The notes under the pieces were generated by a model. That model worked only from the letters and a program-made list of their open reading frames with translations, was not told where the DNA came from and did not search any database. A DNA stretch of 64,000 bases, from assembly GCF_003337555.1 (NCBI RefSeq), contig NZ_QPJK01000008.1:310001-374000 (forward strand). Direction: 5' to 3'. The translations under genes were made by a program, and so were the position numbers. Positions within the stretch are counted from its first letter, which is position 1. Each line of letters opens with the position of its first letter. Source of the stretch: Pseudorhodoferax soli (lineage in GTDB: Bacteria; Pseudomonadota; Gammaproteobacteria; Burkholderiales; Burkholderiaceae_C). Shown in pieces: positions 54,950 to 58,354 of this stretch.

Positions 54950-57900
54950 TCAGCGCGGCATCATGCGCACCGCGCGCTGGTCGGCCAGCGGTTGCGGCAC
55001 ACCCAGGTGGTAGCCCTGGGCGAAGTCGATGCCGATGGCCTCCACGCGGCGCAAGATGTCCTCGTCGGCCACGTACTCGGCGATGGTCTGGAGGCCCATC
55101 ACGTGGCCGATGGCGTTGATGGCCTCCACCATGGCCAGGTCGATGGGGTCGTGCGCGATGTCCTTGATGAAGCTGCCGTCGATCTTCAGGAAGTCCACCG
55201 GCAGGTTCTTCAGGTAGGCGAACGAGGAGAGCCCGCTGCCGAAATCGTCCAGCGCGAAGAAGCAGCCCAGCTGCTTGATCTCGCGGATGAAGGGCACGAC
55301 CTTGCTGAGGTTGGCCACGGCCGAGGTCTCGGTGATCTCGAAGCAGATGGCGCCATGCGGCAGTTGCAGGCGTTCCAGCGTCTCGCGCAGGTCCTGGCGG
55401 AAGCGCTCGTCCGACAGCGAGGCGCCCGAGATGTTGATGCTGTAGACGCCGGGCAGCGCGCCCTCGCGGCGCACGCGGTCGCCGATCCAGGCCAGCGTGT
55501 TGCGCACCACCCATTGGTCCACACGCGGCATCAGGCCGTAGCGCTCGGCCGCAGGCAGGAAGCTGCCGGGCGCGATCACCCGGCCGCCTTCCTCCATGCG
55601 CACCAGGATCTCGAAGTGCGGCGCCCGGTCCACGCCCGAGGGCAGCGGCACGATGGGCTGGGCATACAGCCGCAGCCGGTCTTCGTCCAGCGCGTTCTGC
55701 AGCCGCGTGGCCCACTGCATCTGGCCCTGCTGCTCCATCAGCGCGTGGTCGTTCATCTGGTAGACGTGAATGCGGTTGCGCCCCTCGTCCTTGGCGGCGT
55801 AGCAGGCCGCATCGGCGGCCGACAGCACGGCGCCCAGGTCGCGGTCGGCGCCCAGCACCGGCACCAGGCCGATCGACACGCCGATCGAGAAGGACTTGCC
55901 CTCCCAGGCGAAGCGGAAGTCGGCGATGTCTTCGCGGATCGCATCGGCCAGCGTGATGGCGCGCTGCATGGGGCAGGACTCGAGCACGAGGCCGAATTCG
56001 TCGCCGCCCAGCCGTGCCAGCATGTCGGAGGCGCGCAGGTGGCTGCGGATCAGCGCGGCCACCTGGCGCAGCAGCTCGCCGCCGGCCACATGGCCGCAGG
56101 TGTCGTTGACGAGCTTGAACTGGTCCAGGTCGAGGAAGCACACCACGTGCGTCTGGCTGGCGTCGCGCGGGCGGTCGAGCAGTTCGCCCAGGCGGCGCTC
56201 GAAGGCGCGCCGGTTGGGGATGCCGGTCAGCGCGTCGTGGCTGGCCTGGTGCTGCAGTTCCTGGGCCAGGTTCAGCGTGACGGTGACGTCGTGGAACACC
56301 AGCACGGCGCCGATCAGGAAGCCCTCGCGCGAGCGGATCGGCGCGGCCGTGTTCTGCACCGGGATCGGCAATTCGTCGCGCCGCACCAGCAGCGCGTGCT
56401 CGAGCCGCGCGACGACGCGGCCGCGCGTGAGCACCTCGCGCACCGGCACCGGCAGCACGTCGCCGCTCTGGGCGTCGCGCAGCCGGTAGATGTCGTTGAT
56501 GGAGCGGCCCTGGGCCTCGGCGGCCGACCAGCCCGTGAGCCGCTCGGCCACCGGATTGATGTACTGCACCATGCCGGCCTCGTCGGTGGTGATCACGCCG
56601 TCGCCGATGGAGGCCAGCGTGACCTGGGCCAGGTCGCGCTCGCGGTGCAGCTGCGCCTCGAAGTGCTTGCGTTCGGAGATGTCGCGCACGGTGCCCGTGA
56701 AGCGCAGCTCGGGTCCCACCCGGTTCTCGCTGACCGAGATCTCATAAACCACGCGCGGCGCACCGGAACGGACCTTGCGCAGCTCCAGCTTGGTGCCGGG
56801 GCGGCACAGGTCCTCGCGCGCCGCCGGCCCGCTGTACCCGGCCTCGCGCAGCAGCGCCTGGAACGGGTGGCCGACCACCTGGTCGGCGCTGAGCTGCAGC
56901 AGCTTCTCGGCGCCCGGGTTCAGGCTGGTCAGCACGCCTTCGCGCGTGAAGGTGACGATGCCGTCGCGCATGTCCCGCACGATGGCACGGGTCTGGTCGG
57001 TGGCGGCTTCCAGCGCGCTGATGACGCGGTTGTAGGCCGAGGCCACCTGGCCGACCTCGGTGAACGGCTCCACCGGCACGCGCTGGCGCAGGTCGCCGCT
57101 GCGCCGGTGCTCCTCCATGGCGTCCACCAGCTCGATCAGGTCGGTGCGCGTGCCGTGCTCGGACACGTTCAGGCCCACATGCTCGTCCTGCGGGCGCACG
57201 CGCAGCGGCCCGAAGCGGCCGATGCCGCGCAGCAGCAGCCAGGCCATCAGGCTGGCCCACAGGCAGCAGGCGAGGACGCCCAGCAGCTGCACGCCCATCT
57301 GCTCCAGCCGCGTGTTGCCGTTGGCGATGCGCTCCAGGTCGCCGAACAGGCCCACCGACAGCGTGCCCCAGATGCCGGGCGCCAGGTGCGCCGGGATCGA
57401 TCCGACCGCATCGTCCAGGCGCCAGGCGAGCAGCCATTCGGACACCAGCACCATCAGCAACGCGGCGACCAGGCCGATGAGCCAGGCGGCCAGCGGCGAG
57501 ACGACATGGCAGCTCGCGGTGATCGCCACCAGGCCGGCGATGGCGCCGTTGATGAGGTAGCCGATCTCGCAGTAGCCGCGCCGCCAGATGCCCATGGCGA
57601 TGCCGCCGACGATGCCGGCGGCGCCGCCGATCACCGTGTTGACCAGGATGCCGGGAACCCGCTCGTTCAGCGCCAGCGTGCTGCCGCCGTTGAAGCCGAA
57701 CCAGCCGAAGAACAGGATCAACACGCCCAGCATGGCCAGCGGCAGGTTGCCGGCCGGCAGCGGGCGCGGCGGCTCGCCGGGCACGAAGCGGCCGGTGCGC
57801 GGGCCGATCATGGCCACGGCCACGAGCGAGACCCAGCCGCCCACGCTGTGCACGACGGTGGAGCCGGCGTAGTCCACGAAGCCCAGTTGGCCGAGCCAGC

Positions 57901-58354
57901 CGCTGGGTTTGCCTTCCAGGCTGCCGCCCCAGGCCCAGTGGCCGAACACCGGGTAGATCACCATCGCGACGCCGGCCGTCACCGCCATGTAGGTCGAAAA
58001 GCGCATGCGCTCGGCCACGGCGCCGGAGACGATGGTGGCCGAGGTGGCGCAGAACATCAGCTGGAACAGCAGGAAGGCCATCAGCGGCGCATGCAGCGAG
58101 AGCTGGTCGAGCAGGCCGAAGTGCGAGGTGCCGAACCAGCCGTCCAGCGAGTTGCCGAACATGAGACCGAAGCCGACCGTCCAGTACACGGCGGTGGCGA
58201 TGGCGAAGTCGGCCACGTTTTTGACCGCCACGTTGATCGAATTCTTGTTGCGCGTGAGGCCCGATTCCAGACACAGGAAACCGGCCTGCATGGAGAACAC
58301 CAGGGCTGAGCAGAGCAGGATCCAGAGCAGGTCCAGCGGCTGGGCGGCGCTCAC
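54950..58354 (-). CDS. Ammonium transporter fused to PAS-PAS-GGDEF-EAL (ammonium-linked c-di-GMP enzyme)
   Basis: About 1,134 aa. Residues 1-400 form an Amt/Rh-type channel: VFSMQAGFLCLESGLTRNKN, twin-His positions STVVHSVGGW and SIPAHLAPGIWGTL, tail NVSEHG. Next are a HAMP-like helix (~405-460), a PAS domain (~465-580), a second PAS (~590-705), GGDEF (~715-880; active site RLGGDEFGLV, I-site RASD five residues before it) and EAL (~890-1134; FEILVRM, ITETSAVANL, DDFGSGLSSFAYLK, LKIDGSF, QGYHLG). GGDEF and EAL catalytic residues look intact, with EIL replacing EAL. It starts at GTG 58354, overlapping a short leader frame's stop. Confidence 0.88.
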   Translation of the reverse strand: MSAAQPLDLLWILLCSALVFSMQAGFLCLESGLTRNKNSINVAVKNVADFAIATAVYWTVGFGLMFGNSLDGWFGTSHFGLLDQLSLHAPLMAFLLFQLMFCATSATIVSGAVAERMRFSTYMAVTAGVAMVIYPVFGHWAWGGSLEGKPSGWLGQLGFVDYAGSTVVHSVGGWVSLVAVAMIGPRTGRFVPGEPPRPLPAGNLPLAMLGVLILFFGWFGFNGGSTLALNERVPGILVNTVIGGAAGIVGGIAMGIWRRGYCEIGYLINGAIAGLVAITASCHVVSPLAAWLIGLVAALLMVLVSEWLLAWRLDDAVGSIPAHLAPGIWGTLSVGLFGDLERIANGNTRLEQMGVQLLGVLACCLWASLMAWLLLRGIGRFGPLRVRPQDEHVGLNVSEHGTRTDLIELVDAMEEHRRSGDLRQRVPVEPFTEVGQVASAYNRVISALEAATDQTRAIVRDMRDGIVTFTREGVLTSLNPGAEKLLQLSADQVVGHPFQALLREAGYSGPAAREDLCRPGTKLELRKVRSGAPRVVYEISVSENRVGPELRFTGTVRDISERKHFEAQLHRERDLAQVTLASIGDGVITTDEAGMVQYINPVAERLTGWSAAEAQGRSINDIYRLRDAQSGDVLPVPVREVLTRGRVVARLEHALLVRRDELPIPVQNTAAPIRSREGFLIGAVLVFHDVTVTLNLAQELQHQASHDALTGIPNRRAFERRLGELLDRPRDASQTHVVCFLDLDQFKLVNDTCGHVAGGELLRQVAALIRSHLRASDMLARLGGDEFGLVLESCPMQRAITLADAIREDIADFRFAWEGKSFSIGVSIGLVPVLGADRDLGAVLSAADAACYAAKDEGRNRIHVYQMNDHALMEQQGQMQWATRLQNALDEDRLRLYAQPIVPLPSGVDRAPHFEILVRMEEGGRVIAPGSFLPAAERYGLMPRVDQWVVRNTLAWIGDRVRREGALPGVYSINISGASLSDERFRQDLRETLERLQLPHGAICFEITETSAVANLSKVVPFIREIKQLGCFFALDDFGSGLSSFAYLKNLPVDFLKIDGSFIKDIAHDPIDLAMVEAINAIGHVMGLQTIAEYVADEDILRRVEAIGIDFAQGYHLGVPQPLADQRAVRMMPR

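Follow-up and report, generated by a model that had tools for sequence, protein, structure and literature searches.

A Pseudorhodoferax soli gene joining an Amt domain to PAS, GGDEF and EAL domains probably encodes an ammonium receptor of a known kind

Organization of the fused gene

The window analyzed here is a 64,000-nucleotide stretch of the Pseudorhodoferax soli genome (contig NZ_QPJK01000008.1, positions 310,001 to 374,000), and all coordinates below are positions within it. An unbroken minus-strand open frame (54950..59356) spans the region of interest, and within it an Amt-HAMP-like-PAS-PAS-GGDEF-EAL gene (54950..58354, minus strand) runs from a GTG codon at 58354 to a stop at 54950 and encodes 1134 aa, so that the fusion is real and lies in one chain as in the original prediction. 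The frame most likely opens at GTG 58354, since several relatives begin at the same residue, with their initiating methionines (MSAVVDLLW, MTNSQPLDLLW and MQVSQIDILW) aligned to it. Residues in P0001 numbering are counted from this GTG plus 13. We note a 19-codon frame (58351-58410, minus strand) just upstream, with an ATG at 58410 preceded by AAGGAG and a TGA stop codon sharing bases with the GTG start (GTGA). The Pseudorhodoferax sp. Leaf265 locus also has a short frame that opens with ATG, stops at this TGA and encodes a different peptide; such a frame could possibly be a leader or provide coupling, or could reflect chance in GC-rich DNA.

The domains, all on the minus strand, follow one another in order from the N-terminus. 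The Amt domain (ammonium transporter fold; 57149..58327; Pfam PF00909, 1.5e-110) is followed by a HAMP-like linker (57008..57133; Pfam HAMP, 9.9e-5 and 23.0 bits, just under the cut-off of 25) and a first PAS domain (56666..56971; PAS_4, 25.3 bits versus a cut-off of 23.1), both of which emerge only when isolated pieces are scanned separately with Pfam. Then come a second PAS domain (56285..56620; PF00989, 1.5e-18), a GGDEF domain (55772..56245; PF00990, 6.2e-41) and an EAL phosphodiesterase domain (55001..55705; PF00563, 3.4e-60). The features of a diguanylate cyclase are present, including the GGDEF motif, the metal-binding Asp and RxxD, and a residue check bears out the predicted intact active site and RxxD inhibitory site. 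The EAL domain had been credited with most of its catalytic motifs; the domain is there, but it looks complete, with 8/8 checked positions intact in a list that we take to be the catalytic set. Judged by these residues the GGDEF-EAL pair is complete. Among 15 GGDEF-EAL sequences including that of the window, the GGDEF site is intact in 15/15 and the EAL site in 13/15; the EAL active site is degraded in L027 and the end of the EAL domain is missing in L031, both having an intact GGDEF.

An AlphaFold2 model of the full chain has a mean pLDDT of 83.3 and a pTM of 0.46, with parts of the linker below 50 and low confidence both for the linker and for the placement of the domains relative to one another. 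The first PAS domain shows alpha/beta elements in this model (residues 465-558, counted from the GTG). The Amt part superimposes on Sd-Amt1 (8qj3) with a TM-score of 0.95 and on Ks-Amt5 (6eu6) with a TM-score of 0.94, normalized to target length. The output module is 50% identical to the PAS-GGDEF-EAL region of PA0861, which we take to be RbdA, and a structure search also pairs the two.

Relatives and distribution

Relatives of the same make-up are found in 17 other distinct loci, aligning over 1021-1149 columns at 49-96% identity (L015 and L278 represent one gene, and for L031 the alignment ends at residue 1014). Nothing in these near-full-length alignments indicates the frameshift between the Amt and PAS parts that the original prediction had named as a risk, and relatives at this range of identity argue against a frameshift or chimera.

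The range of outputs attached to Amt domains is seen in a contig scan with the Amt domain as query, from which the best 80 loci were taken. Among these, 32 have a C-terminal extension of at least 122 aa after the Amt match and 48 have one of 11-37 aa. Pfam searches of all 32 long tails identified GGDEF-EAL with PAS in 14, GGDEF alone in two, an MCP chemotaxis domain in eight, a HisKA kinase in three, Hpt plus HATPase (CheA-like) in two, a hybrid kinase in one and a SpoIIE phosphatase in one, with nothing recognized in the one left. These 32 loci derive from Pseudomonadota, Spirochaetota, Planctomycetota, Actinomycetota, Verrucomicrobiota, Myxococcota, Bacillota and Thermodesulfobacteriota.

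The gene has a rare and patchy distribution. Within the genus a full-length match is present in 2/6 genomes including its own, and in the remaining four the best hit is confined to the C-terminal part. Scoring an Amt as fused where the match runs through the linker and the fetched stretch holds a long open frame and an output domain, and with the own genome included each time, we count 11/299 in the family sample (E 1e-100), 5/399 in the order sample (1e-80) and 19/398 in the phylum sample (1e-120). A conserved operon was considered and rejected, as the neighbors are conserved no further than the nearest relative. The LysR/SDR side is common only to Pseudorhodoferax sp. Leaf265 (L015/L278), the MFS gene 4 nt downstream has no match in the Leaf265 locus, and of the remaining loci that were fetched and compared, only L018 matches LysR and SDR, weakly (27-30%).

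GlnK and expression signals

The absence of an adjacent glnK, claimed at the outset, is borne out, as a search for the PII motif was negative both in the window and in the stretches fetched for 25 fused relatives. As a control, the same motif was found in the organism's own amtB locus and in 30/30 plain Amt loci of the order (L095-L124); the plain AmtB, encoded elsewhere in the same genome, has glnK just upstream. Because the motif is missing at the fused loci checked and present at all 30 plain ones, control of the fused gene by GlnK appears unlikely.

A weak sigma-54-like -24/-12 site lies upstream of the gene (58442..58457, minus strand), matching 9/12 positions (shuffle p 0.057) of what we take to be the consensus. 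Such sites score 10-11/12 in 7/11 Comamonadaceae-group family members (L169, L170, L171, L172, L173, L174 and L279); the window and L015 score 9 and the other two below 8. Scores of at least 10 occur at 16/71 fused loci (duplicates included) versus 40/100 plain loci, and sigma-54-like sites across the whole window are not above chance. The signal is weak, being convincing only in some relatives and providing no evidence for the window by itself. The sites in family members do fit the induction reported for AmtE of Azoarcus olearius BH72, which was enhanced 36-fold in nitrogen-fixing cells according to a passage of PMC8467165.

Fused Amt domains form a single clade

Three trees of Amt domains were built, all quick maximum-likelihood trees with SH-aLRT as the only support, no bootstrap and some long branches. 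The first contains 114 domains, 64 fused and 50 plain (seven duplicate or partial loci were omitted and the plain set was thinned from 102 by locus number), and places all 64 fused Amts in one clade with SH-aLRT 99 and no plain Amt inside. The 39 rows labeled GGDEF-EAL include five with GGDEF only and two with PAS only in the fetched stretch. Addition of Ks-Amt5 and Sd-Amt1 gives a 66-row fused clade that includes the window protein, again with SH-aLRT 99 and no plain Amt inside. The notion of an ammonium sensor thus holds, as the Amt part shares its clade with the characterized sensor Ks-Amt5 and with Sd-Amt1, whose structures are entitled 'Receptor'. A third tree of 155 rows, in which 55 fresh rows were added and 16 GGDEF-EAL rows as well as fresh plain Amts with an HMM score below 450 were omitted, places 69/70 rows with a tail of at least 50 aa in the clade (SH-aLRT 99), which again contains no plain Amt; the sole long-tailed row outside is L252, in whose tail no domain was found. 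The fused rows were retrieved with receptor-like queries, which could have missed a fused Amt lying far from this clade.

The outputs within the clade include GGDEF-EAL, GGDEF, histidine kinase, MCP and SpoIIE domains, and the output class switches often, with 11 changes for all seven labels on the first tree. We note that the Amt-MCP fusions, some of which have a HAMP domain (L035, L036, L038, L039, L040, L042, L043, L044, L129, L166 and L167), are, from their domains, apparent direct ammonium chemoreceptors. Fusions to a SpoIIE-type phosphatase are seen in L032 (by Pfam) and L128 (by a home-made single-sequence profile).

Pore and ammonium-site residues

The AmtB pore set (the Phe gate, W/S filter, twin His and D) is present in the window Amt domain, and all seven pore residues checked are kept (F114, W155, D174, H182, F234, S238 and H336 in P0001 numbering, which is used throughout for the window protein). 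The original prediction described an Amt channel with both pore histidines; H182 and H336 are indeed present, but their retention does not establish a working channel, as the D of the C-terminal region (CTR) motif ExxGxD is N. Loss of a function-critical Amt residue, also named as a risk, is accordingly found as regards transport (ExxGxD to ExxGxN) and not as regards sensing.

The ammonium site between TM1, TM2 and TM4 corresponds in the window protein to Q36, E43, N59, D62, T120 and S123. Relative to the Ks-Amt5 site (Q24, E31, N47, D50, T51, T109 and T112), the Q, E, N, D and T109 are kept, and T51 and T112 are replaced by F and S, two changes that are also seen in Sd-Amt1. Of the three bulky residues reported to block Ks-Amt5, F27 is kept (F39), and Y30 and F34 are replaced by L42 and L46. 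Across the 64 fused Amts the site is conserved (Q 64, E 64, N 64, D 63, T 63, S 58), but it is common in the 50 plain Amts too (Q 32, E 32, N 25, D 37). Because many plain Amts carry these residues they are no proof of sensing, and we rejected the site as a receptor marker.

A CTR residue separates fused from plain Amts

A sharper distinction is seen in the CTR, where transporters have ExxGxD and the window protein has ExxGxN (57167..57184, minus strand; N409). One column, that of residue 409, fully splits the sets, with N in 66/66 fused rows (the 64 fused Amts plus Ks-Amt5 and Sd-Amt1) and D in 50/50 plain rows. The passages of PMC4852598 on this region count this Asp among five universally conserved CTR residues, describe its interaction in Af-Amt1 with the N-terminal end of TM2, and report that mutation of ExxGxD residues gives inactive transporters. 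The other CTR residues R, E and G are each retained in 66/66 fused rows. The CTR Tyr is absent in all 65 fused rows that cover its position; it is also absent in 14/50 plain Amts, so its loss is not special and was rejected as a marker. Two other candidates were likewise rejected. A long loop 5 fails since a length of 20 residues predominates in fused (46/66) and plain (36/50) Amts alike, and A56 in TM2 occurs in 97% of the fused set, yet is A in nine, V in two and S in five of 16 fresh fused Amts.

The marker was applied to a fresh set, composed of the Amts from ten genomes known to encode a fused Amt and those of 149 Planctomycetota genomes, the latter fetched as all those with a locus plus 40 further regions, which is part of the listed matches. 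From 109 Amt stretches, five were dropped for a missing column and ten had been seen before, leaving 94, among which a few neighboring genes are possibly counted twice. Where an output domain is present (n=16) the residue is N in 14, S in one and D in one; with a tail of at least 50 aa and no domain (n=4) it is N in three and D in one; and with a tail below 50 aa it is D in 74/74. The exceptions within the receptor clade are the fused L220, with D, and the fused L221, with S. Several Amts, namely L033 (identical to L202), L216, L217 and L226, carry the N and a tail of 64-132 aa with no known domain, and these may be receptors that work through a novel output or a partner protein.

The position changes three times on the 155-row tree. 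Because the fused Amts form one clade, the D to N replacement is mostly one inherited change, and probably single rather than a product of many independent events. A plausible but tentative scenario, to which we give a little less than even weight, is that one ancient conversion of transporter to receptor occurred by undoing of the CTR latch (ExxGxD to ExxGxN, with loss of the Tyr), and that this portable receptor was then plugged into many outputs, including c-di-GMP enzymes, kinases, CheA-like kinases, chemotaxis receptors and SpoIIE phosphatases, the Asp/Asn difference alone separating receptor from transporter in nearly every case.

Proposed mechanism and alternatives

The explanation that we favor, with good confidence, is that the window protein is a membrane ammonium receptor derived from a transporter, in which a released C-terminal latch drives c-di-GMP turnover. 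The domains, the residues, the clade and the co-inheritance of the whole chain are observed, and sensing itself would follow from them in this way. External ammonium would pass through the intact selectivity filter and be held at the TM1/TM2/TM4 site. In transporters two contacts clamp the CTR on the TM1-5 half, namely the ExxGxD Asp, docked where TM2 starts, and a Tyr-His bond; with Asn in place of the Asp and no Tyr in the window protein, we propose that the CTR is free to follow TM2, with transport lost or weakened. Two of the ligands sit on TM2, whose first residues are the docking place of the transporter CTR Asp, and we infer that the unclamped CTR relays TM2 movement to the linker. The signal would then pass through the HAMP-like linker and the two PAS domains to the RbdA-like GGDEF-EAL pair, altering net c-di-GMP turnover, and expression would be expected under nitrogen shortage.

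The same features can be read in other ways. The protein might be a working ammonium transporter that also signals, a transceptor in which transport and not binding drives the output. The seven retained pore residues and the Leu residues at two of the Ks-Amt5 plug positions suit such a protein, and AmtE is called a likely transceptor by the authors who described it (PMC8467165). We nonetheless consider it unlikely, though worth weighing, because the ExxGxD Asp is replaced, in a motif whose mutants are reported to be inactive as transporters (PMC4852598), the CTR Tyr is absent, and the genome holds a separate, glnK-linked AmtB. More improbable still is that the Amt domain serves just to anchor the protein in the membrane and to scaffold a trimer, with the real signal (redox, oxygen or a ligand) sensed by the PAS domains. 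Two PAS domains do sit between the Amt domain and the enzymes, but the clade keeps the pore and binding site while the outputs vary, and several members show no PAS (among them the kinase L028, the GGDEF-only L037 and L041, and the MCP fusions), so that the Amt domain is the common part.

A gene-fusion or assembly artefact, or a decaying gene, would fit the patchy occurrence within the genus, but can be practically dismissed given the relatives of the same make-up at 17 other loci and the retention of the checked catalytic residues. The receptor reading remains the preferred one, and the gene is real and intact, encoding a probably functional ammonium receptor of known kind.

PMC12918730 speaks of a controversy over a sensor role for Amt proteins, and the Amt/Mep/Rh field has no settled account of how a transporter turns into a receptor. 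With its retained pore, its exchanged 'universal' CTR residue and its many outputs, the clade offers a simple residue-level marker, and the Asp/Asn difference can be probed directly by a single substitution, made either way. In P. soli, ammonium may set c-di-GMP levels without GlnK.

Comparison with known systems

The solved piece of RbdA (Pseudomonas aeruginosa, PDB 5xgb) resembles the window protein in its cytoplasmic PAS-GGDEF-EAL arrangement and differs in having no Amt domain. RbdA is a GTP-stimulated phosphodiesterase, and by similarity to it the GGDEF-EAL pair of the window protein may act mainly as a phosphodiesterase.

Ks-Amt5 of Kuenenia stuttgartiensis is, like the window protein, an Amt receptor with a fused output, in the same clade, with ExxGxN and with most of the same ammonium-site residues. 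Unlike the window protein, its output is a histidine kinase without HAMP or PAS, and bulky TM1 residues close its pore. It is described in PMC5764959 as binding ammonium between TM1, TM2 and TM4 and signaling without translocation, and Pfluger and colleagues point there to the mismatch of a trimeric Amt above kinase modules that usually dimerize, a question that applies to the window protein as well.

Sd-Amt1 of Shewanella denitrificans (PDB entries 8qj3, 8qj4 and 8qpf, with titles 'Receptor Sd-Amt1 (OFF-state)' and '(ON-state)') shares with the window protein the Amt clade, ExxGxN and a direct output fusion that includes GGDEF. It differs in its 644-661 aa chain with only a GGDEF match after the Amt domain, a chain too short to accommodate PAS or EAL as well. 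The analogy with this protein suggests that ammonium may act as a switch for the cyclase of the window protein. A literature search turned up no publication on Sd-Amt1, the D/N marker or an Amt-MCP fusion; as the Sd-Amt1 paper itself was not among the results, an earlier published account of the marker may exist.

AmtE, as described in a passage of PMC8467165, is like the window protein in joining an N-terminal Amt domain to GGDEF/EAL in one chain, a likeness by description. The direct fusion of Amt to c-di-GMP enzymes, highlighted in the original prediction, is already known from AmtE and Sd-Amt1. The window protein is a further member of this known kind of fusion, and it is the clade-wide D/N marker that may be the new part.
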